Assembly: GCF_024505085.1 (NCBI RefSeq)
Contig: NZ_JANIBC010000004.1
Coordinates: 145,275 to 209,274, forward strand
Direction of reading: 5' to 3'
Origin: Parvularcula maris
GTDB lineage: Bacteria; Pseudomonadota; Alphaproteobacteria; Caulobacterales; Parvularculaceae
Length of the DNA: 64,000 nt
Shown: positions 41 to 51,648 of the stretch, one piece after another
How positions within the stretch are numbered: the first letter of the stretch is position 1
Layout: every line of letters starts with the position of its first letter
Notes under the pieces: model-generated
Seen by the model: only the letters and a program-made list of their open reading frames with translations
The model's database searches: none
What the model was told of the DNA's origin: nothing
Program-made: the position numbers and the translations under genes

Positions 41-631
41 TTAGCCGAGTAGCCGCGACCAATCCTTTATCGTTAGCAGAAGGCGATCTTTTTCGGTTTC
101 TGCTAACGGGCAGCAATGAGCTATTGGGCCGCGCAAAATATTCAATGATCCGAGTATTCTGTGGACTGCAGGTTTGCTGGAAATAATATTACTAAAAATG
201 TCCCAATTCGCTGTTATTAGAACTGTCAGCTCTCCAAAGGTTGTATAATCGATGGATTGATCTGAGCGGACGGTTACTCCGCTGTCCAGCTCGGCTTTCT
301 GCCGACGTTTCACCTCATCCTTTATGTTCTGCGGTACCTTATCGCTGTTCCACCAGTCTTGCCCGCCTGCTTCAGGATCTGAAAGTGTTGAAGAACATAA
401 GTCTCTAATCGATTTTTCTAGGCAGTAGAAAATTTGATAGTAAAAGGCCATTTCGGCCGCCTCGGACCGAACGCGGCTTTCGAACTGCTCCAGAGCCGTT
501 TCGTTTTCTTCCTCAACTACGGTAGTTCCCATTAATCCGCTGATTCCGGTAGCAGCTTCCAAAGCGCGCAATTCATCGCCGAGCTGGAGAGCACTCATAC
601 CGAAAGCTCGTATACGTTCCTGTTGGTCCAA
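41..631 (-). CDS. Swt1-like HEPN domain protein, DUF5343 partner
   Basis: The protein has 196 residues, is helical and soluble, and has no signal peptide. Near the C-terminus it carries an R-x4-H motif (Arg167, His172 in RGPIAH) in a helix after a long amphipathic region. This is the signature of HEPN ribonuclease or RNA-binding domains of the Swt1-associated type. The start is TTG, 2 nt after the stop of the upstream DUF5343 gene, with an AAGGA ribosome-binding sequence inside the end of that gene. The two are therefore almost certainly translated together. Base composition is clearly more AT-rich than genes from 2.5 kb on, which suggests acquisition by transfer. RNase activity, toxicity or defence is inferred from the HEPN family; the real substrate is unknown. 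Confidence 0.7.
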   Translation of the reverse strand: MDQQERIRAFGMSALQLGDELRALEAATGISGLMGTTVVEEENETALEQFESRVRSEAAEMAFYYQIFYCLEKSIRDLCSSTLSDPEAGGQDWWNSDKVPQNIKDEVKRRQKAELDSGVTVRSDQSIDYTTFGELTVLITANWDIFSNIISSKPAVHRILGSLNILRGPIAHCCPLAETEKDRLLLTIKDWSRLLG

Positions 632-633
632 GA

Positions 634-1266
634 TCAGTCCTTTAGAAGATTTTCTTTAAGGCTCTTAAATATAGCGTTGAATACTGATATATCTGACGTT
701 GCCGGAAGATTAAGATTGATCGTATAAGACAGATTAATTCTATTCGACGATCCCACTCTTGTTTGAGGTATTATGGTTCCAATGTCATTATTGACCTCTG
801 ATCCCGTCTCTTCCATTTCAGCTGAAGCGGGATTTTCGCTGTCGAAAGCAGCATAATCTTTGAGGTTAGCGATAGTAGAAAGTGTAAGTGGAACACTTCG
901 TGCGTCTTCCGCTTGTCCTGTTACTTCCAGTATCAATCCCTTGAGTTCTTCAGGATCGAGCTCGTGCATAAATTCATTGTACTGATAAAGTTCGTCGTAG
1001 CCAATGCGGATTGCCTCAGCTGCTGCCCATCCTCGCGTGGTCTTATTTCGGAATTTGCGATACAGATCTGTCGGAGTTCCGTCTGCAGCTGCAAAACCTA
1101 TTTTTTTGAAGAATGCCGTGAGCTGATCGCCTGGACCGCCTTTTATGCCTAGTTTTGTTTTGACGAAATCTTGGCTCACCTTCGGCGGCGTTGGAGCAGA
1201 GATAATAGCTTCGAAACCCTTCCGTACACTGCCAGGAGAAGAAAGGTAGGGTAGTTTTTGAGTCAT
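634..1266 (-). CDS. DUF5343 family protein
   Basis: The protein has 210 residues. Its N-terminal half matches my memory of DUF5343: KLPYLSSPGSV at the start, then a winged-helix-like segment with KLGIKGG, then GTPTDLYRKFRN and the AEAIRIGYDELY block. The C-terminal segment SYTINLNLPATSDISVFNAI is also typical. The family has no settled function. It looks DNA-binding (helix-turn-helix-like) and is often found beside HEPN-type genes in variable islands. It is the first gene of a two-gene unit with the HEPN protein 2 nt downstream. Low GC, as in its partner. It could be a regulator or antitoxin-like partner, or a sensor subunit; the sequence does not decide. Confidence 0.75.
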   Translation of the reverse strand: MTQKLPYLSSPGSVRKGFEAIISAPTPPKVSQDFVKTKLGIKGGPGDQLTAFFKKIGFAAADGTPTDLYRKFRNKTTRGWAAAEAIRIGYDELYQYNEFMHELDPEELKGLILEVTGQAEDARSVPLTLSTIANLKDYAAFDSENPASAEMEETGSEVNNDIGTIIPQTRVGSSNRINLSYTINLNLPATSDISVFNAIFKSLKENLLKD

Positions 1267-37589: not shown

Positions 37590-37698
37590 GCATGGTTTTA
37601 CGCACCGGTAACGCCCAGCGGACTTGTTGGCAGGTATCGGTTCCGCATATCGAGGCGCAGCTCAAGAAAAGTTGAAGAGCGCAAGGCAGGGAAGATTT

Positions 37699-40395
37699 AT
37701 GCAACCCCAAAGTGCAGTCTCTAACGCTACGCAAGCTAGCGACGCGACCTTCTTTGAAGGTTTCGAAGTATTCCAGGATCATCCGTTTTTGTGCGCGTGC
37801 AGCGGCTGCGAGCATGATCATTCAGAGGTGGAGAGCTACGATCCTGCTTGGCAGGGCGCTGAGCAGACCGGTAGTTCCGTAGGCGGACTAGGCGGTTTCT
37901 TCTCCGACGTCGGCGTGGCGATCCTCTCTTCCACCCCGAACTTCGGCTACTCGATCGACGTGGTCGATGCGGCGGGCTCCCTCAGCAACAGCGTGCTGTC
38001 CCAGTTCCAAGCCGTCGTCGACGCCGCCATGAAGACCTGGGCCTACTATCTCGGTGGCCACAAGAACGCCAATATCGAGGTTCAGGTGAATGTCGGCGGC
38101 ACCTCCGCTGTCGCCTCCGCCGGCCCCGGCGCCATGTATTTCGGCGACTATGTTGACGCCAACGGCTCGGGCAAGATCGACAATGGAGACTACCGCCTCG
38201 TCACCACCGGCACCCTGATGGAGCTGCAGACCGGCAACGATCCAAACTCCGGTGCGGACATCGTCGTCTACGTCAATGAGAGCCTGCTGACGAACAACAA
38301 GTTCTTCTTCGATCCCACCCTCTCGAAAGCCGTGCCGAACGGCGCGATCGACTTCTACTCGGTCATCCTTCACGAGCTCGGCCATGGTCTCGGCTTCATC
38401 GGCCTCAACGGCGAGGCGGGACAGTCCAGCACCCGTAACTTCACCGTAGACGGAAAGACGGTGAGCGTGGGCTACGGCACGGCGCTCGACTACTACACCC
38501 GCGTCGGTAAGGACGGCGTTCCCCGTTTCGAAGGGCCGAACGCCTCGGACGCCTATGGCGACGGTATCGCGGTCGAGTACAAGACCGGCAGCTCCGGCTC
38601 GGACCTCTCGCACTTCCTCGGCAACTCGCTGAACGGGGTGAAGAGCGACCTGCGGCACACGCTGATGAACCCCTTCACCGTGTCCGGCGACCGGGTCGAG
38701 ATCGGCCAGCTCGAGCTCGAGTTCCTGCGCGACATCGGCTACACCATCGCCAATGATGCTCGCCGGTTCACCAACAGCATCGACGGCGCCAACATTCCGA
38801 CGGTGAAGGTTCGCTCCGATGTGGACGTCACGTCGGCCAACGACTTCAAGTTCCGTGTGGTGCTGAACGAAGCCTACGGCTCCAGCTCAGCCTCCGTGTC
38901 CGTCGGCTACGAGGTCGTGGGCGCGAACGGCAAATCGGTGACCGGCCGCGTGATCTTCGCTCCGGGCGACCTGATCGAGACGCTTACGGTGGACGGTGAG
39001 GCCCTGTTCGGTGCCGGTCTCAAAAACTTCGGCGGCACGCTGACGATCAAGCTGTTCAACCCCTCCAACGCCGACCTCGGCAACGGTAACCTGCAGCAGA
39101 CCTTTAAGTTCTCCCCAGACGGCGGCCCGGCACCTGCTCCCGAGCCGGAGCCCACGCCCGAGCCGACGCCGGAACCGGAACCAACCCCGGAACCTGAGCC
39201 TGCGCCGGAACCCGAGCCGACCCCCGAGCCCAAGCCTAGCGGCGAAGGTCTGCCTTCCCCAACAAGTTTCGTTGCCCACGAGGAAATTCGCGGCACATCG
39301 TCTGGTGATCGTCTCGTCGGTGGCGAAGGTGACGAGAAGATCTTTGGTCTTGGCGGCAACGATTACCTCTTCGGAAGCTACGGTTCAGATCTGCTGATCG
39401 GCGGGGAGGGTAACGACTATCTCAGTGGTCAGGGAGGTGGCGATTATTACCTCGGCGATAGTCACCATGACCTGAACACTGACGACCGTAATACTTTCGT
39501 TCTCTATCCAAGCGAACAAGAGACGATTGTACGGTTCGAGCTCTCCAATGCGATAAGCCGCAACACCGATGCACTGGCGTTCAACACCGGTCGGCTGGAA
39601 GGCTCGTCGCTTTCGAAATCCGTGCAAGACGCCCTTTCCGGCGCTCTCCGCGAACTCTCCGACTTCACCAAACTAGCCGATGCGCTGACCAATGACGGGA
39701 AATCGCAGAGCTATGTCGAAGCCTCGGGTACGACGGTGAAGTTCGTGATCAACGAGACCTTCTCCTTCGTGATCCTTAACCTTCACAGCGACGACCAGGA
39801 CGTGGCTAAAGCGTTCTCCGCCTACGCCGATCTCAACGTTGCCAATATCAGCACCGGTCTGATCAGCGTCGAGGGTTCGACGAGGCCTGATGTACTTCTT
39901 GGTACGGTTGGCGACGACTTTATCAGTGGCGGAAGGGGCGCTGATCTGATCGTCGGCGGTGCAGGTAACGACGTGATGCGTGGCGGTCACCAGGAGGATA
40001 TCTTCTCCGCTGGCAACGGTCTCGATACGATCGAGGACTTCGAGTTGTTCACGGACAACTTGGTCCTGGAAACGCAGATCGCCGTACGAGCCAAGAACGG
40101 TGCAGCCCAGCTTCTGGATTTCGTCAAAGACGGTATCTCAAGCATTCGAGACCTGCTGGACTTCACGGACCTTGTGTCCAACGACGGCAATAGCGACACT
40201 TTCGTCAGCATTGACGGGAACGACCTCCTTCTGGTCCTCGACCGCTCTGGAAGCACGGTCACCGATGGTGTTCGCTTGGAAGGCATCGTTGGCGACCGCG
40301 TAGATCGGGCGGACCTTCTGGCTGCTGGAGCGACAGACGCTTCCGGCAACCTGGCTGCGACCTGGGACGTCTTCGATGACGCCATGGTAGCTTAG
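37699..40395 (+). CDS. Secreted RTX-type zinc metalloprotease
   Basis: The protein has 898 residues and no classical signal peptide. The zinc motif HELGHGLGF begins at residue 225. A Pro-Glu-Thr linker (EPEPTPEPTPEPEPTPEP repeated) lies near 480-513. Glycine-rich RTX repeats follow at about 534-587 (GGEGDEKIFGLGGNDYLFG) and 739-771 (GGAGNDVMRGG). This is the plan of type I-secreted calcium-binding proteases; no inhibitor or T1SS genes are nearby. It resembles the metalloprotease NF038122-type family. Start at ATG 37699 (AGGGAAG upstream); the frame opens at 37624. Ends at a strong terminator. Confidence 0.85.
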   Translation: MQPQSAVSNATQASDATFFEGFEVFQDHPFLCACSGCEHDHSEVESYDPAWQGAEQTGSSVGGLGGFFSDVGVAILSSTPNFGYSIDVVDAAGSLSNSVLSQFQAVVDAAMKTWAYYLGGHKNANIEVQVNVGGTSAVASAGPGAMYFGDYVDANGSGKIDNGDYRLVTTGTLMELQTGNDPNSGADIVVYVNESLLTNNKFFFDPTLSKAVPNGAIDFYSVILHELGHGLGFIGLNGEAGQSSTRNFTVDGKTVSVGYGTALDYYTRVGKDGVPRFEGPNASDAYGDGIAVEYKTGSSGSDLSHFLGNSLNGVKSDLRHTLMNPFTVSGDRVEIGQLELEFLRDIGYTIANDARRFTNSIDGANIPTVKVRSDVDVTSANDFKFRVVLNEAYGSSSASVSVGYEVVGANGKSVTGRVIFAPGDLIETLTVDGEALFGAGLKNFGGTLTIKLFNPSNADLGNGNLQQTFKFSPDGGPAPAPEPEPTPEPTPEPEPTPEPEPAPEPEPTPEPKPSGEGLPSPTSFVAHEEIRGTSSGDRLVGGEGDEKIFGLGGNDYLFGSYGSDLLIGGEGNDYLSGQGGGDYYLGDSHHDLNTDDRNTFVLYPSEQETIVRFELSNAISRNTDALAFNTGRLEGSSLSKSVQDALSGALRELSDFTKLADALTNDGKSQSYVEASGTTVKFVINETFSFVILNLHSDDQDVAKAFSAYADLNVANISTGLISVEGSTRPDVLLGTVGDDFISGGRGADLIVGGAGNDVMRGGHQEDIFSAGNGLDTIEDFELFTDNLVLETQIAVRAKNGAAQLLDFVKDGISSIRDLLDFTDLVSNDGNSDTFVSIDGNDLLLVLDRSGSTVTDGVRLEGIVGDRVDRADLLAAGATDASGNLAATWDVFDDAMVA

Positions 40396-40853: not shown

Positions 40854-41765
40854 TCACGACCGCAGCCGCGGCAGGGTCAGGCCTGCCGCGGCTTTTTTCT
40901 GTCCGGCCGCAGGGCGGTAGACGGCGGCTGGGCGGCCGCCCGTGCCCTTTACGGTCTTGGACGTCTTCACCACCAGCTTCTGCGCCTCAAGAGCTCTGCG
41001 GAAGTTCTGCTTGTGCACTTCGAACCCCAGAATGCCCTCTACCGCCGTCTGCAGCTTACCCAAGGTGAACTGGGTGGGCAGGAGCTCGAAGACCACCGGG
41101 CGGTAGCGCAGTTTGCCCCTGAGCCGCCCGATGGCGGTCGCTAGAATGCGCCGGTGGTCGGAGATCATCGCCTCGCCGAAGAGCTCGGGGCCGTCGGCGC
41201 CGTCGCGGTCGCGGTGCGCCTCGGTGACGAGCTGCGCCTCATACATCAGCTCGTAGCGCTCAAGCGCCCGCGCCTCGTCCCAGGAGGAGCGGGGGAAGGT
41301 CGCCAGCAGCCTTTTGCGCCTCGCCTCGTCCGCCCCGGCCCAGGCCTTGAGCCGCGCGAGGAGGGCATCCTCCTTTTCGCCCCGTCGGTCCTCCCAGGGG
41401 AAGAACTCGTACCAGGGCCGCCAGGCTGCGCTCTCCAGGTTGGGTTCAGCGGCGCTGGGGGAGAGCCCCAGATAGCCCACCGAGACGATCCGGTCCGCCT
41501 CGTCGCCCAGCACCAGCGAAGCCCGCGGCGCCTCACGGCCTCGGTCGCCAAAGGTGTAGAGCTGCTCGGCATAGCCCAGCGGCACCGCCGTCTGGCGTTC
41601 GACGAAATCCCTTAGCGCCAGCTCGAAGGTGCGGTGCTCCGCCGGGTCGAACCGTCCGAACGGCAGCCCCCAGCCGCCGGGACGGCGTACGCACAACACA
41701 TGCGGCTCCCCCCCGATCAGGGTGACCAGCGCCACATTGAGCCCGATGACCAGCCTTCGTTCCAC
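40854..41765 (-). CDS. NUDIX-winged-helix NAD regulator (NrtR/NadQ type)
   Basis: The protein has 303 residues. The N-terminal half is NUDIX-like (LNVALVTLIGGEPHVLCVRR, WGLPFGRFDP, then ELALRDFVERQT), but the NUDIX box lacks its REExxEE core, so it is probably a sensor and not a hydrolase. The C-terminal part near 210-285 is a winged helix (LPTQFTLGKLQTAVEGILG, VHKQNFRRALE, GGRPAAVYR), as in NrtR and NadQ repressors. Such proteins sense NAD-related ligands and control NAD genes. nadABC lies 3.4 kb away. Start GTG; a palindrome overlaps it. Converges on the small membrane gene. Confidence 0.8.
   Translation of the reverse strand: MERRLVIGLNVALVTLIGGEPHVLCVRRPGGWGLPFGRFDPAEHRTFELALRDFVERQTAVPLGYAEQLYTFGDRGREAPRASLVLGDEADRIVSVGYLGLSPSAAEPNLESAAWRPWYEFFPWEDRRGEKEDALLARLKAWAGADEARRKRLLATFPRSSWDEARALERYELMYEAQLVTEAHRDRDGADGPELFGEAMISDHRRILATAIGRLRGKLRYRPVVFELLPTQFTLGKLQTAVEGILGFEVHKQNFRRALEAQKLVVKTSKTVKGTGGRPAAVYRPAAGQKKAAAGLTLPRLRS
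40864..40898 (+). terminator. Intrinsic terminator inside the end of the NAD-regulator gene
   Basis: AGCCGCGGCAGG (40864-40875) and CCTGCCGCGGCT (40882-40893) form a perfect 12-bp stem followed by TTTTTT on the plus strand. It lies within the last codons of the converging regulator gene. Confidence 0.88.
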
Positions 41766-41975: not shown

Positions 41976-42560
41976 CTACTCCCGCAGCTCCTCGAACCTA
42001 GCCAAGTATAACGCCTGGCTCTCCTCCGTGGAAAGAATGTCGATCTCCAGCGGCTCCACGCTTCTTGGCACGGGAAAGAGCTTCTTCGCCTCGGTCTTGC
42101 CGAAGCCCGCGATCTGGGTGGCCTCGAAATAGGCGCAGGCGCGGTCGGCTTTCTTGATGAGCTTCTCGACGTGCTCCGGCAGCTCCGCAGGCAGGCCGAA
42201 GCGCAAGTGGATGGCCCGCTGCAGGCCCGCTTCCACCTGCCGATAGGTCGCGCCCAGCGCCCGCTTGAAGGGCGAGATCATGTCGCCGATGACGTATTCG
42301 GGCGCGTCGTGGAGAAGGGAGGCAAGACGCCACTCGCGCTTCCAGTCGGGTTTGATCTGCCCGCAAAGGTTCTCGACAATGACCGAGTGCTGCGCCACGT
42401 TGAAGGGGCGTGTGCCGATGGTTTGACCGTTCCACCTCGCCACCCTGGCGAGGCCGTGGGCGATGTCCTCGACCTCGATGTCGAGGGGGGAGGGGTCGAG
42501 GATGTCGAGACGGCGCCCGGACAGCATGCGCTGCCAAGCACGTGGAGGCGTTTGGGACAT
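41976..42560 (-). CDS. HD-domain hydrolase (YfbR-like)
   Basis: The protein has 194 residues. HD motif ligands are in FNVAQHSVIV (His58) and LLHDAPEYVIGDM (His84-Asp85), with the last Asp in IKKADRACAYFEA. The start MSQTPPRAWQRMLSGRRLDI resembles alphaproteobacterial members that have AWQRM near the N-terminus. YfbR cleaves 5'-dNMPs; activity here inferred. The frame is open up to 42809, but the extension is low-complexity and overlaps the helicase gene end. Convergent with nothing; it follows deaD on the same strand by 82 bp. Confidence 0.85.
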   Translation of the reverse strand: MSQTPPRAWQRMLSGRRLDILDPSPLDIEVEDIAHGLARVARWNGQTIGTRPFNVAQHSVIVENLCGQIKPDWKREWRLASLLHDAPEYVIGDMISPFKRALGATYRQVEAGLQRAIHLRFGLPAELPEHVEKLIKKADRACAYFEATQIAGFGKTEAKKLFPVPRSVEPLEIDILSTEESQALYLARFEELRE

Positions 42561-42642
42561 AAGCGGGTTGATAGCGGCGAAGCTTGAAGGGGTCACCCAC
42601 GGGTTTTCCGCCCCGCAAGGCTCGCCCCGCATGCCGAAGCCG

Positions 42643-44532
42643 CTAGCCCGGACGTTTGCGCGGGTTCTTGCCGCTTCCGTCAGCAGCGCGGTGCTTCTTG
42701 AAGGGCTTGCCTCCGTCTTTCTTCTTGTAAGACGCGGAAGTTTTGGCAAAGGCGGCACCCGGCTTCGCCTTGCGCCGCCGCTTGAAGGACTTTTCCTTCT
42801 GCTCAGCACGCGGTTCAGAGGACGCGGCTTCCGAGGCGCCGCGTTCTTCGCGAGGCTTCCACGGCTTCTTGGAACGCTCCTGCTTGCCTCGGGGGGAGAA
42901 GTTTTCTCGGCGGTCCTGCCCGCCCTGTGGGGGCGGTCCGTCCGCGAGGGCTACCGTGATGCCGTCCTCAAGGACCGGGTCCTCCTTGATGCGGCCTAGG
43001 AAAGCGGAGGCTTTGTGAGGATCCAAGCCGACGAAGGTCTCGTGCTCCAGAACGCGGATCGCGCCGATCGCCCCCTTGGTGAGGCCCCCGGCCTTGCAGA
43101 GCATGGGAAGAAGCCAGCGGGGCTCGGCCTTCTTCTTGCGCCCCACGGAGAGGGTGACCCAGACAGCATCCGCATCCTCCCGGCGGATGGGACGCTCACG
43201 GACCTTATCGAGCGGTTCGACCACGGACAGCTCCTCCGGCGCGGAGCGGCCCTGAAGGTGCAGCTCGATGAGGGCTGCGGCGAGCTGCTCGGCGGGGTGG
43301 CTGGCGGCGAGCGTCCTGGCGAGCTCGGTCACCTCCTTCGGCTCGTTGAGGGCGGGGCTTTCGAGCAGCCTCTCCTCGTCCTTGGCGCGGACCTCGTCGG
43401 CGCTCGGCGGGTTGCCCCAGTCGGCCTCGACCTTGGCGTCGGAGAGAAGCCGCTCGACGAACCTTCTCGCCTTGGGCGGTACGATGAGGACGCTCGTACC
43501 CTTCCGCCCGGCTCGCCCCGTCCGGCCCGAGCGGTGCAGCAGCCCCTCGCGGTTCTTCGGTAGGTCGGCGTGGATGACGAGCTCGAGCCCTGGCAGGTCG
43601 ATGCCGCGCGCGGCCACGTCGGTGGCCACGCAGACCCTGGCCCGCCCGTCGCGCATTGCCTGGAGGGCGTGGCTGCGCTCGGTCTGGGTCAGCTCGCCGG
43701 ACATGGAGACCACCGAGAGCCCCCGGTTGGCGAGGCGGCTGGTCAGCCGCGCCACCGCCGCCCTGGTCGAGCAGAAGACGATGGCGTTCTCCGCCTCGTA
43801 GTAGCGCAGCGTGTTGATGATCGCCCGCTCGGTGTCGAACTGGGCGGTGAGAAGCGCGCGGTAGGCGATGTCGCCGTGCTGCTCGGCGGGGCTGGCGAGG
43901 GAGACCCGCACGGCGTCCTGCTGGAACCTGCCTGCGAGCTTGGCGATACCGCCGCCCACCGTGGCGGAGAACATCAGCGTCCTTCGGCCCTCGGGGCAGG
44001 CGTCCAGGATCGCCTCCAGCTCCTCGCGGAAGCCGAGCTTCAGCATCTCGTCCGCCTCGTCCAGCACCGCGACCTTGAGGGCCGCAAGGTCAAGGGAGCC
44101 GCGCGAGATGTGGTCGACCAGGCGACCCGGCGTGCCGACGACGATATGGGCGCCGCGGGAGAGGGCCTGGCGCTCGGCCCGCATGTCCATGCCGCCGACG
44201 CAGGTGGCCACCCTCGCGCCTGCCGGGCCGTAGAGCCAGGTCAGCTCCTTGGCGACCTGCATCGCAAGCTCCCTGGTGGGCGCCACGATGAGGGCCGAGG
44301 GCAGGGAGGCTTCGGGAAGCCTGTCCTCCTCGCCCAGAAGGTCTGGCCCGATGGCCACGCCGAAGCCCACGGTCTTGCCGGAGCCGGTCTTAGCCGAAAC
44401 GAGGAGATCCTGGCCCAGAAGGTCGGGCGACAGCATGGCCGCCTGCACCTCGGTCAGGGTCTCGTAGCCCTTCTGCGCAAGAGCGCGGGCAAGGGCGGGA
44501 TGCAGCCCTTCGGCGGCGGCGGTGCTGGTCAT
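42643..44532 (-). CDS. DEAD-box RNA helicase with DbpA-type RNA-binding domain
   Basis: The protein has 629 residues. Motif I is AKTGSGKT (47-54), then PTRELAMQ, TPGRLVDH, VLDEADEML, FSATV, ATDVAARGID and HRSGRTGRAGR. A DbpA-like RNA-binding fold near 455-530 (VWVTLSVGRKKKAEPRWLLP, IGAIRVLEHETFVGL) follows. The last 90 residues are a basic, disordered tail (KPWKPREERG, KRRRKAKPG). It resembles DeaD/CsdA: ribosome assembly or mRNA unwinding, often cold-induced. 304 bp upstream holds its promoter. Confidence 0.93.
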   Translation of the reverse strand: MTSTAAAEGLHPALARALAQKGYETLTEVQAAMLSPDLLGQDLLVSAKTGSGKTVGFGVAIGPDLLGEEDRLPEASLPSALIVAPTRELAMQVAKELTWLYGPAGARVATCVGGMDMRAERQALSRGAHIVVGTPGRLVDHISRGSLDLAALKVAVLDEADEMLKLGFREELEAILDACPEGRRTLMFSATVGGGIAKLAGRFQQDAVRVSLASPAEQHGDIAYRALLTAQFDTERAIINTLRYYEAENAIVFCSTRAAVARLTSRLANRGLSVVSMSGELTQTERSHALQAMRDGRARVCVATDVAARGIDLPGLELVIHADLPKNREGLLHRSGRTGRAGRKGTSVLIVPPKARRFVERLLSDAKVEADWGNPPSADEVRAKDEERLLESPALNEPKEVTELARTLAASHPAEQLAAALIELHLQGRSAPEELSVVEPLDKVRERPIRREDADAVWVTLSVGRKKKAEPRWLLPMLCKAGGLTKGAIGAIRVLEHETFVGLDPHKASAFLGRIKEDPVLEDGITVALADGPPPQGGQDRRENFSPRGKQERSKKPWKPREERGASEAASSEPRAEQKEKSFKRRRKAKPGAAFAKTSASYKKKDGGKPFKKHRAADGSGKNPRKRPG

Positions 44533-44836
44533 GGCGTGGTTTCCGGCGGCGCGCGGGGCCGAGCATACCGGCCGCTGCGCCGCGATGATCGTCGGCGAAA
44601 GCGCGCGCCTAGCAGATCATGCTCGCCATAGCGAGGGGGTTCCGAGAGGCGGGGGTGTTTGTTCGTTCATGGAGGGGGCAGCCGCTTGGTGCTTGCCTCC
44701 CCTCCCACAGATTGCTTAGCGACCGTGGGAAACCGCCCAAAGAGAGCACCAAGCCGTACGGTGGATGTAGGATGCGGCCACCTTCGCAAGAACGAGACGT
44801 GGTCAGGTGGCCGGCTGCCGCCGTCCACCTTGTGGT
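44533..44836. other. Gene-free region between helicase and TIR genes, with family C repeat
   Basis: No gene is supported. The right part (44761-44840) is a family C element: GTGGATGTAGGATGCGGCC, AGGTGGCCGGCTGCCGCC and GTCCACCTTGTGGTCTAC. It touches the TIR stop codon. The part nearest the helicase gene must carry the helicase promoter. Confidence 0.55.
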
Positions 44837-45676
44837 CTACGACTTAATATCTACACCGAATTCCTCTATCAAGGGTCGATTAGGTGCAGTCCAGAAACCG
44901 GTTTGCGGAATAGGCCTGTACTCAGAAGCGTCCCCACGGTGCAAAAGAGCGACGATTTTCAACTCTGCTGGGCCTTTCTTTACTAGGTCAACCAAAAGAG
45001 GACGTTGTGGCGTTATTACGCCGCCGTGTTGCGTGAATGTGAAACCATTGGTTCTAAAATTACTAACAACAAGATCAGGATTGAATCCAATAGAGTACAT
45101 CGGATTACCTTGGATCCTTAGTTCCAATTCATCCTCGTTATTCAGAGTTAGAAGCACAAAGTCTAAGTGGGGCTCAAGAAGGTGAGATGCACGAATTTTG
45201 ACTTTCATCTCTTCTCTTGGGTTGCCTGATAGATGAAAAGACAGGTTCTCAAATTGCTCTTCACTGGGCTTGAAAGTGGAACTTCCTGAGATAACGCTTT
45301 CGATGTCGTGGATTGCCCGTTCAACCCCCTTCGTATGTAGATCGATATAGACGCTTTGCATAAGCAATGGCGGCATTTCACAACCGTCCATCCGCACAGG
45401 TATAATTCGGCAATTCCCTGATGTGGCTTGCATTAACGCCGCGTGCCATTCCAGTTGGACCATTTTGCTAGCCATGCTGCTACGGCTCACAAAAAGGAAA
45501 AAGAAGTCAGGGGCGTTCATCCCCTCGTTCATTTTCGCAATGATGCCATCGCCTGGTTGCATCGACCAACTGTCATAGAAGACCGCATCCTGGCCATACA
45601 TATGACGTAGACGAACCGCTATCGGTTCGACCAAAGGCTTGTCATTATGGTTATGGCTTAGGAAAACCTTAACCAT
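44837..45676 (-). CDS. TIR-domain protein, translationally coupled to KAS III
   Basis: The protein has 279 residues. Residues 1-125 are a TIR domain of the TIR_2 type: [20 protein letters not shown], then AVFYDSWSMQPGDGIIAKMN, DFFFLFVSRSSMASKMVQLE and IIPVRMDGCEMPP. Glu76 (QLEWHAA) is at the catalytic Glu position of TIR NADases. Residues 150-279 are a beta-rich domain I cannot assign. The ATG overlaps the stop of the upstream ketoacyl-synthase gene (TGATG), so translation is coupled. GC is far lower than the neighbours: likely acquired. An NAD-cleaving defence effector is plausible but unproven. Confidence 0.82.
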   Translation of the reverse strand: MVKVFLSHNHNDKPLVEPIAVRLRHMYGQDAVFYDSWSMQPGDGIIAKMNEGMNAPDFFFLFVSRSSMASKMVQLEWHAALMQATSGNCRIIPVRMDGCEMPPLLMQSVYIDLHTKGVERAIHDIESVISGSSTFKPSEEQFENLSFHLSGNPREEMKVKIRASHLLEPHLDFVLLTLNNEDELELRIQGNPMYSIGFNPDLVVSNFRTNGFTFTQHGGVITPQRPLLVDLVKKGPAELKIVALLHRGDASEYRPIPQTGFWTAPNRPLIEEFGVDIKS

Positions 45677-46791
45677 CAGCAAGCCCGCACCACAATAGAC
45701 CCAGCCGAGTACCCCGCGCCAAACCCAGAGATCACTCCCAAGCTCCCGCTCTCCATATCATCCTTGTACTTATGGAAAGCGATGATCGAACCCGCCGAGC
45801 TCGTATTGGCGTACTCGTCGAGGATGACGGGGGCCTCGTGCGCCTCGGGGTCGCGGCCCAGGAGCTTCTTGGCGATCAGGAGGTTCATGTTGAGGTTGGC
45901 CTGGTGCAGCCAGAAGCGGCTGACCTCCGCCGTGTCGATGCCGTTGTCGCGCAGATGCTCCTCGATCATGGCGGAGACGAGGGGGACGACCTCTTTGAAG
46001 ACCGAGCGCCCGTTCTGCTTGAAGAGCTTGTCCGTCTTCGGATCGCTGAGGTCGATGACCGCGTCCTCGCCGGGGTTGAGGAAGCCGAAATTGTTGCGGA
46101 TATTGTTGGAGAACTGGGTCTTGAGCCGCGTGTCGAGGATGTCGAAGGCGCCCTTCGGGGCCTCGCCCTCGGGCCGTCCGATGATCGCGGCGGTGGCGAC
46201 GTCGCCGAAGATGAAGTGGCCGTCCCGGTCCTTGAAGTTGATATGGGCGGTGCAGATCTCCGGGTTGACCATCAGCACACGGCGCGCGCCCGTGGCGAGC
46301 AGCCCCACGGCGGTCTGGATGCCGAAGCTGGCGCTCGCGCAGGCCACGTTCATGTCGAAGGCGTAGCCGTCGATGCCTAGAGCATCCTGCACCTCCACCG
46401 CCATGGCGGGGTACTGGCGCTGCATGTTGGAGGCGGCGCAGATCACCGCATCGATGTCCTGGGGGCCTAGATTCGCCCGCTCCATCGCGTCCCTGGCCGC
46501 CTTCACCGCCATCTCGGCCATGATGGAGAGCTCGTCGTTGGAGCGCTCCTCGAAGTTCGGGCGCATGCGATCGGGGTCGAGGATGCCCTCTTTCTCCAAG
46601 ACGTAGCGCGCCTTGATGCCCGAGGCCTTCTCGATGAAGGGGGCGTTGGAGGGCTCCAGCTTCTGGTCCGGGTTCGCCTCGTTCCAGCGCGCCACATAGG
46701 CGTTGTAGGCCTCCACCAGCTCCTCATTGGAGATGGACTGCTCGGGCGTGAAAAGACCGGTGGAGAGGATGCAGGCGATGGCGGGCTTCAT
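45676..46791 (-). CDS. Beta-ketoacyl-ACP synthase III family
   Basis: The protein has 371 residues, longer than E. coli FabH (317). The catalytic triad is Cys151 ([11 protein letters not shown]), His296 ([11 protein letters not shown]) and Asn329 ([10 protein letters not shown]). The insert [19 protein letters not shown] near 31-49 and [11 protein letters not shown] are seen in FabH-like homologues of unsure role. It condenses an acyl-CoA with malonyl-ACP, or starts a special lipid. The TIR gene begins inside its stop codon. A family B repeat lies upstream. Confidence 0.9.
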
Positions 46792-46856
46792 AGGACCTCG
46801 CGAGGGTTGTTTGGGGCCTTGTGCGCCTTATCGGGGAGGGGGGCAACCGGGGTCAT

Positions 46857-47000
46857 CTCCCCTCTCCCGCTTGCGGGAGAGGGGCCGGGGGTGAGGGGGT
46901 TCTGAGCACCGCGCTGCATAGTTTACACAGCAGTACGGCTTCGCCGATCCCCTCACCCGAAATCGAAGATTTCGACCTCTCCCGTGAACGGGAGAGGTGG
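46857..47000 (+). repeat. Family B repeat
   Basis: CTCTCCCGCTTGCGGGAGAG, GGGGCCGGGGGTGAGGGGG, middle, CGGCTTCGCCGATCCCCTCA, CCCGAAATCGAAGATTTCGA and CTCTCCCGTGAACGGGAGAG. It fills the 215-bp gap between tag and the ketoacyl synthase gene. Confidence 0.75.
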
Positions 47001-47006
47001 GGCGTT

Positions 47007-47576
47007 CTACGACAGCTCCCCGTGCCGGAAGCAGCAGGTCAGGTGGTCGTTCACCATGCCCACGGCCTGGGCGAAGGCGTAGACGATGACCGGGCCGCAG
47101 AAGGTGAAGCCTCGTTTCTTGAGGTCTTTCGACATCTGCTCGGAGATAGGCGTCTTGGCAGGCATGTCCTCGATCCGCTCGAGGTTCGTTTGTACTGGGA
47201 TGCCGCCCCAGTAGCTCCACAGCCATTCGGAGAAGCTCTCCTTCTCCATGACCTCAAGCCAGGCGCGTGCGTTCTTGCGGGCGCCCTCGATCTTCAGCCG
47301 TGAGCGGATGATGCCGGGGTTTGCCAGCAGCTCCTCGATCTTGGCCTCGTCCCAGCGAGCGATGGCCTCCGGGTCGAAGCCGTCAAACGCCTCGCGAAAA
47401 TTCTCGCGCTTGTGTAGGATGGTGCGCCAGGAGAGCCCTGCTTGGAAGCCGTCGAGGACCAGCTTCTCGAACAGGGCGCGGTCGTCATATTCGGGCACAC
47501 CCCACTCGGTGTCGTGGTAGTGCTCGTAGAGAGCGTCGCCGTTGGTGGGCCAGGGGCAGCGGGTTGGGTTAGTCAT
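47007..47576 (-). CDS. tag: DNA-3-methyladenine glycosylase I
   Basis: The protein has 189 residues. It begins TRCPWPTNGDALYEHYHDTE with WGVPEYDDRALFE, then LDGFQAGLSWRTILHKRENF, ANPGIIRSRLKI, and MVNDHLTCCFRH at the end. Cys7 and the C-terminal His/Cys make the zinc clasp typical of Tag. It removes 3-methyladenine from alkylated DNA. Its start overlaps the end of the upstream small gene by 8 nt. Last gene of the csaA-to-tag run. Confidence 0.96.
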   Translation of the reverse strand: MTNPTRCPWPTNGDALYEHYHDTEWGVPEYDDRALFEKLVLDGFQAGLSWRTILHKRENFREAFDGFDPEAIARWDEAKIEELLANPGIIRSRLKIEGARKNARAWLEVMEKESFSEWLWSYWGGIPVQTNLERIEDMPAKTPISEQMSKDLKKRGFTFCGPVIVYAFAQAVGMVNDHLTCCFRHGELS

Positions 47577-47961
47577 CTCGTTTTCTTCTTAAAGAGATAG
47601 AACCACCGCCTGTTCTATCCCAAACTAACCAAGCCCCTAGACCTGCACTTACTCCGCATGCAGCAAAAACCAGCATCGTTTCTACATCCTGATAAGGAGG
47701 TGGCCGGAAAACAATTGAAGTCGCAGCGGTAGACAGTAAGCCACCGAGAATAGCGGTTGACCACCATCTTGGAGCAGCGAAGCGAAGATGTAGTAGCGCT
47801 AAAGGCAAACCCACGATAAAAATGAAAGGAAGGGCAACAATGAAGCCGATCATCAGTACGAGTATCGTCTGTTGCCCACTAGATGTATGAAATATAAGCG
47901 GTAGTGCCGCAGCGGCAGAACTTACAACGATACCAAGAGCGAAACGATTGGCTAAGCGCAT
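47569..47961 (-). CDS. Low-GC four-helix membrane protein, unknown
   Basis: The protein has 130 residues with about four membrane helices (near 7-25, 30-58, 67-86, 96-114) and a basic tail ISLRRKRDD. No family recognised. It is clearly AT-richer than ygfZ upstream and tag downstream. It overlaps tag by 8 nt and starts 26 bp after the ygfZ stop, so it was placed inside the operon without breaking it. Function unknown. Confidence 0.7.
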   Translation of the reverse strand: MRLANRFALGIVVSSAAAALPLIFHTSSGQQTILVLMIGFIVALPFIFIVGLPLALLHLRFAAPRWWSTAILGGLLSTAATSIVFRPPPYQDVETMLVFAACGVSAGLGAWLVWDRTGGGSISLRRKRDD

Positions 47962-48788: not shown

Positions 48789-49123
48789 AGGGGCGGCAGG
48801 CTCTCCTCTTCGACCGCGGTGGAGCGGCCCACCGGCCTCAGCTCGATCACGGCGTCCTTGGCACCCAAGGGCACGGTGAGGCGCACGGGGCGGTAGCCGA
48901 GCTTGGCGATCTGCACCTCCACCGTCATGCCGTAGTCGATGCGGCAGGGGGTGAGGCACTCGCCGTGGGGGTAGGTGAGGGTCGCCCCGGTCGGCAGGCT
49001 GTCGATCACCACCCCCGGCACCGGCGCCTCGTCCTTCGGCCGCGCGAAGCTCAGCCCCTCGGGCAGGCTGACGGTCTGGCACGCGGCCAGCGGTAGAAGG
49101 AGGAGGGGCAGAAGACGCTTCAT
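48785..49123 (-). CDS. Small PEGA-like lipoprotein
   Basis: The protein has 112 residues. MKRLLPLLLLPLAACQTVSL is a lipoprotein signal with lipobox LAAC (Cys15). The mature part, VVIDSLPTGATLTYPHGECL then CRIDYGMTVEVQIAKLGYRP, is PEGA-like, a small beta domain often found at cell surfaces. Its start overlaps the metC-like stop, and its end overlaps the ygfZ start, both by 4 nt (ATGA). Function unknown. Confidence 0.85.
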   Translation of the reverse strand: MKRLLPLLLLPLAACQTVSLPEGLSFARPKDEAPVPGVVIDSLPTGATLTYPHGECLTPCRIDYGMTVEVQIAKLGYRPVRLTVPLGAKDAVIELRPVGRSTAVEEESLPPL

Positions 49124-50280
49124 GGCGCGGGCAGGGGCTCCTGGTTGGCGGCGGCGAAGGCCTGGTCGAGATCGGCGGTAAGGTCCTCTATCGCTTCTAG
49201 CCCGGCATGGAAACGCAAGACTTGTCTCTCTTCGCGCCACGCGCCTTGGGAGCGGCATGTCGCGGGCCAGGCCGGAAGGCAGAGGCTCTCATACCCGCCC
49301 CAGCTATAGCCCAAAGCGTAAAAGTTTAGTTTGTCGATGAACCGTCTCGTATAGGCCTCGTCGCCCCGCTTCAGCACCACCGAGAAGAGCCCCGAGGCGC
49401 CGGTGAAGTCACGCTTCCAGAGCTCATGCTGGGGGTGGCTGGGAAGACCAGGGTGGAGGACGCGGGCGACCTCCTCGCGCTCTTCGAGCCAGCGGGCGAG
49501 AGCGAGGCCCTGAACCTCGTGCTCGGCGAGGCGGATATGCAGCGTCCTCATCCCGCGCAAAACGGTATAGACGTCGTCGGGCGAGGTGGCGTTGCCCAGA
49601 AGCTGCGCGGTCTTGAAGATGGTCTTGGCCGCCTTGGCCGTGCGGCTGGCGATGGTGCCGAGGAAGACGTCGGAGTGTCCGCCGAGGTACTTCGTAGCGC
49701 TCTGAATGCTGATCGTCGCGCCGAGCTGCAGCGGCTTGTAGAAGTGCCCCGCGCCCCAAGTGTTGTCCACGGTGACGGGGACGTCCCCCGCCGCCTCGCA
49801 GATGGCGGGCAGGTCCTGAAGCTCGAAGGTGAGGGAGCCAGGGCTCTCGCAGTGGATGAGGGCGGTCTTCTCAGTGATCAGCTTGCGGATGCCGCCGCCG
49901 ATCAGAGGATCGTAGTAGCGGACATCGACGCCCCTTGGCGCCAGGTACTGGTCGCAGAAGGCCCGCACCGGGTCGTAGGTGCTGTCCGTGACCAGAACCT
50001 CCGTACCCGGCTTGGCGTAGGCGAGGATCGCCATGTTGACCGCCGAGAGGCCGGAACTCGTCAGCGTGACGCCCTCGGCGCCTTCTAGCGCCATCACCGC
50101 CTCGCGCAGGGCTTCGTGGGTGTCGGTGCCGTGGCGGCCGTAATATTTGGGACGGCCCCGCCCGCGGAAATCGTCATAGGACGGAAAGACCACGGTCGAG
50201 CCGCGCTCGACGGCCGGGTTCACCATGCGCAGCCCCTCATGGGGGCGGCCGAGATGGCAGAGCTTGGTCTCGTCCTTCAT
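49120..50280 (-). CDS. metC: Cystathionine beta-lyase
   Basis: The protein has 386 residues. The PLP-binding Lys is in IQSATKYLGGHSDVFLG. Family marks are VNPAVERGSTVVFPSYDDF, GRHGTDTHEAL, VTLTSSGLSAVNMAI and TVDNTWGAGHFYKP. The pattern around ATKYLGGHSDVFLGT is nearer to MetC than MetB, so cystathionine to homocysteine is the likely reaction. Start ATG overlaps the GNAT stop (ATGA); an in-frame GTG is 9 nt further. Operon member. Confidence 0.9.
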   Translation of the reverse strand: MKDETKLCHLGRPHEGLRMVNPAVERGSTVVFPSYDDFRGRGRPKYYGRHGTDTHEALREAVMALEGAEGVTLTSSGLSAVNMAILAYAKPGTEVLVTDSTYDPVRAFCDQYLAPRGVDVRYYDPLIGGGIRKLITEKTALIHCESPGSLTFELQDLPAICEAAGDVPVTVDNTWGAGHFYKPLQLGATISIQSATKYLGGHSDVFLGTIASRTAKAAKTIFKTAQLLGNATSPDDVYTVLRGMRTLHIRLAEHEVQGLALARWLEEREEVARVLHPGLPSHPQHELWKRDFTGASGLFSVVLKRGDEAYTRRFIDKLNFYALGYSWGGYESLCLPAWPATCRSQGAWREERQVLRFHAGLEAIEDLTADLDQAFAAANQEPLPAP

Positions 50281-50822
50281 CCGCGCCACTCAATCAGGCC
50301 CTTGGCCTGGTCGTAGATGGTGAAGCCTTCGCGCTGGTAGAGCTGCAGTGCGCGGGGGTTGTCGAGGGTGCAGGTCTCGATGATGACGCGCCCGCGGCGA
50401 AGCTGCCAGGCGAGCTCGGTGATCTCACGAAAGAACCAGCGGCCAAGGCGCTGGCCCTGCATATGGGGGAAGAGGCCGAAGAACTTGATCGCCGCCTCGC
50501 CGTCCTTGCGCGCGTCGATCTCGCCGAAACCTGCAGGAGAGCCTTCAGCATAGAGAACGTAGATATAGGTCTGCGGGTCGTCCGTATGCTTTCGCAGCGC
50601 CTCGTCGTTCATGTAGCGGCGCGAAATCCAGCGGTGCGGCTCGCCTACGCCGTTGAAGAGGAAGCGGTAGAAATCGGGATGCGGCTTCTCCGCCCGCATC
50701 AGCGCCAGCGCCCTGCCGGGGCGGGGCAGGGGGGTCTGCGCGCGGGGGCTCGTCTGCTCGAGGTAGCGGATCGTCACCTCGTGGCGCTCGAGGGGTTCGG
50801 GAGCTCTGGGGGCGGCGCTCAT
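50277..50822 (-). CDS. GNAT N-acetyltransferase
   Basis: The protein has 181 residues. The acetyl-CoA-binding loop is in FFGLFPHMQGQRLGRWFF near 115-132, with the NPRALQLYQREGFTIYD beta-bulge block near the end. Substrate unknown; sequence does not tell amine, amino acid or protein targets. It overlaps the upstream hypothetical gene and the downstream metC-like gene by 4 nt each (ATGA). Confidence 0.9.
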   Translation of the reverse strand: MSAAPRAPEPLERHEVTIRYLEQTSPRAQTPLPRPGRALALMRAEKPHPDFYRFLFNGVGEPHRWISRRYMNDEALRKHTDDPQTYIYVLYAEGSPAGFGEIDARKDGEAAIKFFGLFPHMQGQRLGRWFFREITELAWQLRRGRVIIETCTLDNPRALQLYQREGFTIYDQAKGLIEWRG

Positions 50823-51304
50823 TGCAATTGCTCTAGCGTTTCAAAGGGAGGAAGACACCCACCGTGCTCTATCCGGATAGGCTTCTCGGTCTTAGACACA
50901 CCTTGCCGCAAGCGGACTAAACTCGCAGTTACTTCCTCGATTAGGTCCTCATTCGCAAGGCAGACAGTGAGCACATACTCGTTGTTTCTATCGCTGAGCA
51001 GAAATGGCTGATACTTTGAAACGCGAGCTAGCCGACTGTGGGTCAACCATCCATCTTGAAGTGATGGAGAAGCACACTGTCCGTATAGGTAGGAAACGAA
51101 CGATCCGCGCCAATCGTCTGCCTGTTCAAGAGATAGGGTGAAGCTGCAGCTGCCTGCCTGTAACGGCTCCGAAATCTCCATCGGTTCAAGACGGCCTTTG
51201 CCGGGAGAAAACATCACGGTGAGCAATAACAGCAGCAGACCAACCAGCCCTGCTAGTATAGCCCCTAGGAGGAAACCTGCCGTCTGTCGTAAGGCCCAAA
51301 TCAC
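50819..51304 (-). CDS. Low-GC membrane-anchored protein, unknown
   Basis: The protein has 161 residues. One strong helix ([20 protein letters not shown] near 10-29) anchors it, and an extracytoplasmic domain follows with four Cys residues ([21 protein letters not shown] and GGCLPPF), which may form disulfides. No family recognised. It is AT-rich next to csaA and the GNAT gene, yet overlaps both: GTGA at its start with csaA and ATGA at its end with the GNAT gene. The scar-free fit is notable. Confidence 0.7.
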
Positions 51305-51648
51305 GACATCCTCGTCCCGTTGGGCACCGGGGTGTCAGGCCCGGCCAACACCACCTCGCCGTTCTCGTCCTCGAAGCCCAGGACCAGCACCTCCGACACG
51401 AAGGGGCCGATCTGGCGCGGGGCGAAGTTGACGACGGCCATGACCTGGCGGCCCGGCAGGTCCTCAGGAGTATAGTGCTTTGTGATCTGGGCGGAGGACT
51501 TCTTCTCGCCGATCTCGTCGCCGAAATCCGCCCAAAGCTTGATCGCGGGCTTACGCGCCCCGGGGAAGGGTTCGGCGCGCAGGACCGTTCCTACACGGAT
51601 GTCGAGGGCCTCGAAGGTGGCGAAGGGGGTTTGGGGCGTTACAGGCAT
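51301..51648 (-). CDS. csaA: CsaA tRNA-binding domain protein
   Basis: The protein has 115 residues, the full size of Csa[21 protein letters not shown], then [34 protein letters not shown] and [20 protein letters not shown] are the family blocks. It is an OB-fold domain like the C-terminal domain of MetRS; it binds tRNA and has been linked to protein export as a chaperone. First gene of the minus-strand run that ends with tag. Confidence 0.94.

Follow-up and report, generated by a model that had tools for sequence, protein, structure and literature searches.

A TIR-domain gene that overlaps a ketoacyl synthase III gene in Parvularcula maris is a putative, horizontally acquired single-gene defence NADase

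The analysis presented here suggested that a small TIR-domain gene of Parvularcula maris, which starts inside the stop codon of a ketoacyl synthase III (KAS III) gene, was probably acquired horizontally and probably encodes a TIR NADase that acts in phage defence as a single-gene system. In this reading, the C-terminal domain is a fast-evolving sensor or oligomerisation domain, and KAS III is a bystander. We favoured this reading because no TIR gene was found in congeneric genomes, because KAS III orthologues were found in nearly all of them and were followed by different genes, and because the GC content of the TIR gene was foreign. In addition, relatives of this lone gene occurred in four phyla and on viral contigs, some of them in phage or defence settings; the catalytic glutamate was kept; and the TIR half was consistently more conserved than the C-terminal half. 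Coexpression with KAS III, NAD+ cleavage, sensing, and a role in defence are all four what we infer from these patterns. The two genes are located in a window of 64,000 nucleotides, which is the whole stretch of DNA that was analysed, and the features of the window are listed in Table 1.

The TIR start codon and the KAS III stop codon share one base

The ORF coordinates confirmed that the KAS III stop codon and the TIR start codon have a single base in common (TGATG, on the minus strand), as the initial annotation had noted. An in-frame TTG located 6 nt upstream (ORF start at 45682) was a possible alternative TIR start; the alignment of relatives fitted the ATG and not the upstream TTG. The one-base overlap alone was unremarkable because four other pairs of same-strand neighbours within about 6 kb also overlapped, by 4 to 13 nt each when ORF starts were assigned mechanically. 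With one base shared by stop and start, the overlap is of a kind that would allow coupled translation of KAS III and TIR, and this part of the initial annotation stood. No clear Shine-Dalgarno sequence was seen by eye before the TIR start. A search of the minus strand from 44500 to 47000 gave no promoter-like site; the TIR gene may still have a separate promoter. The difference in base composition that had been noted between the two genes was also real, as the GC content of the TIR gene was 46.5% (48% at third positions) versus 63.9% for the KAS III gene (91% at third positions). The mean GC content of the window was 63.8%.

The KAS III protein matched NCBIfam NF005703 (PRK07515) with 582 bits versus a cut-off of 304, and all three residues of the triad (Cys151, His296, and Asn329) were located by motif. 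We take PRK07515 to be the PA3286 group. A second KAS III, which was 31% identical, was found on another contig of the genome. Ralstonia FabW, a homologue of Pseudomonas PA3286, was reported to condense acyl-CoAs with malonyl-ACP, and a Ralstonia FabW mutant was reported to be viable (PMC4549310). Damage to the KAS III C terminus, or its replacement by an insertion, was ruled out because the final residues (RAC) matched those of three close congeners.

Table 1. Coordinates of features in the 64,000-nt window
Feature	Position	Strand	Description
KAS III gene	45676-46791	-	371 aa; NCBIfam PRK07515 type; stop TGA at 45678-45676
TIR gene	44837-45676	-	279 aa; ATG at 45676-45674; TIR domain at residues ~1-130, C-terminal domain at residues ~137-279
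REP-like palindromic repeat	44754-44829	.	Diverged copy directly behind the TIR stop
DEAD-box helicase gene	42643-44532	-	DEAD, Helicase_C, and DbpA domains; next gene downstream of TIR
YfbR/HD-like nucleotidase gene	41976-42809	-	Conserved gene beyond the variable gap behind KAS III
NrtR-type regulator gene	40854-41765		Pfam NrtR_WHD
RTX-repeat protein gene	37624-40395		Large protein; Pfam HemolysinCabind
Swt1-like HEPN and DUF5343 genes	41-1266		AT-rich pair, 2 nt apart
REP-like repeat copies	1433-1513
Overlapping pair	47007-47576 / 47569-47961	same strand	Mechanical ORF table
Overlapping pair	49120-50289 / 50277-50822	same strand	Mechanical ORF table
Overlapping pair	50277-50822 / 50819-51304	same strand	Mechanical ORF table
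Overlapping pair	50819-51304 / 51301-51648	same strand	Mechanical ORF table

Relatives of the TIR protein are found in distant phyla and on viral contigs

When a three-row alignment was searched against a collection of 84,980 genomes, each from a different species, 15 cellular loci were obtained. Twelve of the loci formed a first subfamily, whose members matched the window protein in both the TIR domain and the C-terminal domain. The hosts of this subfamily were Caulobacter, Phenylobacterium, Microbulbifer, Marinobacter, Legionella rowbothamii, Aliidiomarina (a broken copy), Prolixibacter, Tenacibaculum, Bacteroidales, Ignavibacteria, Candidatus Gracilibacteria, and an alphaproteobacterium (a partial copy at a contig end). 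The remaining three loci formed a second subfamily, and homology between the C-terminal domains of the two subfamilies was not supported (hhalign probability of 1.4, E of 0.036). Viral contigs carried four members of the first subfamily (L109, L110, L112, and L113) and one member of the second (L088). One locus came from a Marinicaulis genome, which belongs to the host family, and it appeared under two handles, L033 and L085. No name for a family combining the TIR domain with this C-terminal domain was found in the open literature on TIR proteins; one may still be published.

Alignment A7 consisted of 16 rows, with the broken Aliidiomarina copy (L084) and the second subfamily left out. The relatives in A7 were 36 to 47% identical to the window protein and came from Pseudomonadota, Bacteroidota, Ignavibacteriota, Candidatus Gracilibacteria, and viral contigs; the nearest row was L110, a viral contig, at 47%. 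In a first tree, the window protein was grouped with three alphaproteobacterial rows (support of 95/97). In the tree with viral rows, these four proteins and L110, L112, and L113 formed a seven-member group (support of 94/94), in which the window TIR protein was on a long branch (1.45). Matches in the plasmid collection were confined to the TIR part, with no record that covered 80% of the query, and L080 as the query gave none at 1e-20. The phage collection and two further scans of viral contigs yielded no relative of the TIR protein.

Two of the family members had unusual reading frames. The Gracilibacteria gene (L082, 3571-4356) contained two in-frame TGA codons and, because these are read as glycine under table 25, it fits a host with a changed code. 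In the Aliidiomarina copy (L084, 5974-6785), a frame change had split the gene into overlapping ORFs, one of 86 aa and one of 209 aa.

A conserved TIR half is joined to a fast-diverging C-terminal half

Residues 4 to 116 of the window protein matched Pfam TIR_2 (88.2 bits versus a cut-off of 28). This was the only TIR_2 match in the genome at E <= 0.001, and all 15 family members matched TIR_2 at E <= 0.1. Glu76, which the initial annotation had named as a retained catalytic residue, was invariant in the 16 rows of A7. The two halves of the protein differed in tempo. Specifically, the median pair identity across the 120 pairs of A7 was 61% (51 to 83%) in the TIR half (residues 1 to 130) and 27% (16 to 64%) in the C-terminal half (residues 137 to 264), and the TIR half was the more conserved one in every pair. 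Because the C-terminal domain diverges fast, our guess is that it may have a sensing function. A conserved TIR domain with a diverging C terminus is what would be expected of a pathogen sensor; relaxed or weak constraint would look similar.

The C-terminal domain itself was, as first described, unassigned; it had no recognised match in Pfam, PADLOC, and PHROGs or, for the window protein, in NCBIfam. All Pfam, PADLOC, and PHROG matches of the window protein at E < 0.05 fell in its TIR part. PADLOC gave ten matches, all within residues 1 to 114; for the other family members, the PADLOC results were counts of matches without residue ranges. Non-TIR Pfam matches were found in one family member each, with a best E of 0.005, and were taken as chance. 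A profile of the C-terminal domain gave a single match in the PDB (E of 0.35), two weak matches in 384 other genomes of the class sample (E of 9e-5 and 0.0014), and none in 397 other genomes of the phylum sample. The phylum sample shows only that the domain is rare because named genomes of the same phylum carry it.

The nearest solved relatives match the TIR domain only

By profile, the nearest solved relatives were Cat1 and a TIR-NLR protein, and both matched the family in the TIR domain only. Among PDB entries, Cat1 (CRISPR-associated TIR 1, PDB 9mud) matched the family profile A5 best, with an E of 9.8e-9 over profile positions 3 to 95. Like the window protein, it has an N-terminal TIR domain and a similar length (263 aa; PMC12162218). 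When the alignment was read by eye, Glu76 was opposite a Glu in Cat1 and Asp35 was opposite Cat1 Asp33. Cat1 is described as working with type III CRISPR, and its C-terminal domain as a CARF domain responsive to cA4 (PMC12162218). No sequence sign of CARF was found in the window TIR family, and the PDB profile match stopped at the TIR domain.

The TIR-NLR of P4-like satellites is described as a TIR protein that is encoded on a mobile element and acts against phage as a single gene (PMC9122126). On the reading favoured here, the window gene resembles it in this respect. The window family matched the N-terminal TIR domain of this type (PADLOC TIR-NLR; PDB 9m0n). However, TIR-NLR has a STAND NTPase and TPR repeats in an 824-position model, whereas the window protein has 279 residues, only residues 1 to 95 of which matched; neither the NTPase nor the repeats were found. 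Finally, the best PADLOC match of the window protein was PDC-S66 (E of 1.8e-9), which 14 of the 15 members matched. The window protein matched PDC-S66 in the TIR domain only, at positions 151 to 240 of a 282-position model, and thus the domain order differed.

The mechanism that we consider most likely starts with the horizontal acquisition of the TIR gene, which in one lineage would have inserted immediately downstream of KAS III. There the KAS III transcript probably carries the TIR gene too, with termination and reinitiation at TGATG. During an infection, the C-terminal domain would most likely recognise a phage component or set the oligomerisation state. Cat1 is reported to cleave NAD+ only when ligand-driven assembly has stacked its TIR domains (PMC12162218). 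The C-terminal domain of the window protein may, by analogy, hold the TIR domains apart, or join them upon a phage cue. The TIR domains would then assemble, Glu76 would help to cleave NAD+, and the infected cell would halt and no longer support the phage.

A more specific version of this mechanism is possible, and we regard it as a tentative one. The protein may be a minimal one-protein receptor, whose C-terminal domain activates the TIR NADase through direct binding to a variable structural protein of the phage, and prophages may use it as a weapon against superinfection. The C-terminal fold would then possibly be one that has not yet been described. If this receptor reading is true, the family would represent a sensor-plus-effector TIR system of very small size, spread over at least four phyla. 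The family is worth attention for its combination of a conserved enzyme half, a fast-diverging half, a lone gene, and an occurrence in distant phyla and on viral contigs. Such a pattern is how a pathogen-sensing receptor would be expected to look, and the small size of the protein would make tests quick.

Some relatives are located beside phage, defence, or mobile-element genes

Several of the viral relatives were located among phage structural or lysis genes. In L109, the TIR gene was 1.3 kb upstream of genes for the small and large terminase subunits and the portal; in L112, it adjoined a piece of a tail tape-measure gene; in L113, an endolysin gene was about 1 kb away; and in L088, from the second subfamily, it adjoined tail genes. 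In the case of L110, the TIR gene was flanked by two ORFs read as serine recombinases, and no phage structural gene was seen by eye in the stretch around it. Among the 15 cellular loci, a tRNA gene was found only at L073, where the TIR gene was 170 bp behind tRNA-Ser.

For the defence-neighbour check, ten proteins were hand-picked by eye from seven loci. The TIR gene adjoined the PADLOC candidate PDC-M48B (489 bits) in the Marinobacter locus L078, an LmuB-like ATPase (65 bits) in L075, and a DNA methylase or DNA methyltransferases in L077, and the PADLOC candidate PDC-S02 (476 bits) was about 5 kb away in L080. Four of the ten proteins had no PADLOC match, two had only weak ones, and three were without a Pfam family. 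The hand-picked neighbours show that defence-type neighbours exist, not how common they are, and several relatives, such as L074 and L087, were in settings that were unremarkable by eye. The proposal that the C-terminal domain senses lipid or the state of the membrane gained no support; several relatives were beside phage, defence, or mobile-element genes.

No gene recurred next to TIR in the 15 cellular loci. A conserved partner gene was rejected because the 166 ORFs of these loci contained only four cross-locus similarities besides TIR, each involving two loci (two regulator-like pairs, one tRNA-binding-like pair, and one that included an ArdC-domain protein in L081), and none was adjacent to TIR in both loci. 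The foreign GC content of the TIR gene was not general across relatives. In five of 14 relatives (L073, L074, L078, L082, and L083), the AT content of the gene exceeded that of its flanks by 9 points or more, and in the other nine it was within 6 points of the flank value.

It seemed unlikely that the TIR protein instead serves in regulation or as a scaffold, or that it is a passenger without a present use. The putative role in defence was drawn from sequence and context, and the L084 copy, which is broken by a frame change, indicates that the gene is dispensable at least there. However, the patchy distribution across phyla, the copies that lie close to candidate defence genes or in regions of phage structural genes, and a catalytic Glu that was intact in all 16 rows argue against a non-defence role.

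A Thoeris-type role would leave the effector elsewhere in the genome

The TIR protein could also be a Thoeris-type (ThsB-like) protein that makes a signal for an effector encoded elsewhere in the genome. ThsB is likewise a TIR-domain protein, and weak ThsB profile matches (E of 0.004 to 0.02) were found over the TIR domain of the window protein; one ThsB model matched up to nine of the 15 members, and Pfam ThsB_TIR matched three. Nevertheless, we consider a Thoeris-type role improbable because no second gene recurred beside the 15 cellular relatives and because the window family has an additional C-terminal domain. To our knowledge, ThsB is without such a domain. There was no ThsA partner beside the window TIR gene, whose neighbours are KAS III and the DEAD helicase. 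STALD and ThsA_Macro had no match in the genome of P. maris, a weak argument given that the control genomes also gave none. A staphylococcal Thoeris system was reported in 2025 to sense capsids (PMC12578639).

The position behind KAS III is taken by different genes in congeners

The initial annotation had proposed a functional tie between TIR and KAS III, and it suggested looking for the same overlap in related genomes. A KAS III orthologue (72 to 88% identity) was found in eight of nine congeneric genomes; the ninth was an assembly of about 700 contigs in which the best match was 29% identical. None of the nine contained the TIR gene, and the pair was found only in the P. maris genome among the genomes searched. 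Cross-checks with tblastn gave the same picture. No KAS III match at E <= 0.01 was found in 45 TIR loci (43 distinct places, as two loci were repeats), and no TIR match was found in 37 KAS III loci (29 distinct places, as eight were repeats). Many of the flanks in these cross-checks were only about 1.5 kb, one KAS III gene ran off the end of its contig, and the set did not extend to the viral loci L109 to L114. Among the 166 ORFs of the 15 TIR loci, the best KAS III match covered 38 residues with an E of 0.61 and was taken as chance.

The gene order glycosylase, KAS III, HD nucleotidase, NrtR-like regulator was largely kept among congeners, and the gap between KAS III and the HD gene was variable across the congener loci L038 to L045. 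The next same-strand ORF behind KAS III was a flavin reductase gene in two congeners (at +2 and +7), a low-molecular-weight phosphatase-like gene in one (+3), a RidA-like gene in one (+9), an orphan of 150 aa in one (+9), an orphan of 86 aa at an uncertain, overlapping position in one, and the HD gene itself in one (+71). In the eighth congener, an overlapping 109-aa ORF was taken as chance, and the opposite strand carried a long ORF. Hence, five of the eight congeners had a gene no more than 10 nt behind KAS III (+2 to +9), and these genes were of four kinds. Because such varied genes follow KAS III so closely, the spot reads as a small operon site that is re-tenanted, with the TIR gene as one more putative lodger.

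Thus, among the genomes searched, the pair was restricted to this one and KAS III occurred elsewhere without a TIR gene, which is largely the outcome that the initial annotation had set against its own proposal. The one-base overlap and the shared strand would suit a functional unit, with the TIR NADase under the control of KAS III or of the lipid that it makes and with a C-terminal domain that senses the state of lipid or membrane, but we rejected this as highly improbable on the basis of the single genome with the pair, the cross-checks without a match, and the other genes 2 to 9 nt behind KAS III in five of eight congeners. KAS III looks like a bystander, at most a supplier of the transcript, and the pairing looks accidental. 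It teaches little beyond the borrowing of a host transcript by an acquired gene.

Other features of the neighbourhood

The acquisition of TIR and the downstream helicase gene as one block was not favoured because the helicase gene was GC-rich (69%) and had close homologues (63 to 71% identity) at other places in six of the eight congeners searched, a set without G009. We rejected the idea that a specific attachment site marks the end of the TIR gene, as the sequence directly behind its stop proved to be a diverged member of a palindromic repeat family that is dispersed in the genome. The exact arm pattern of this REP-like repeat occurred 13 times in the genome versus 0 times for a reversed-pattern control; the diverged copy behind TIR was not counted among the 13.

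Copies of the same repeat near the start of the window were close to the AT-rich pair of genes for a Swt1-like HEPN protein and a DUF5343 protein. This pair looks like a second acquired, possibly defence, module.

The NrtR-type regulator is native because a homologue was found near the HD gene in all eight congeners with KAS III. The NrtR family controls NAD synthesis and responds to ADP-ribose. In the window, the regulator gene was 3 kb from a TIR gene whose product would be expected to turn NAD+ into ADP-ribose. The large RTX-repeat protein contained, by eye, a zinc-protease-like HExxH stretch, and a 41% identical homologue was present in one of eight congener loci.
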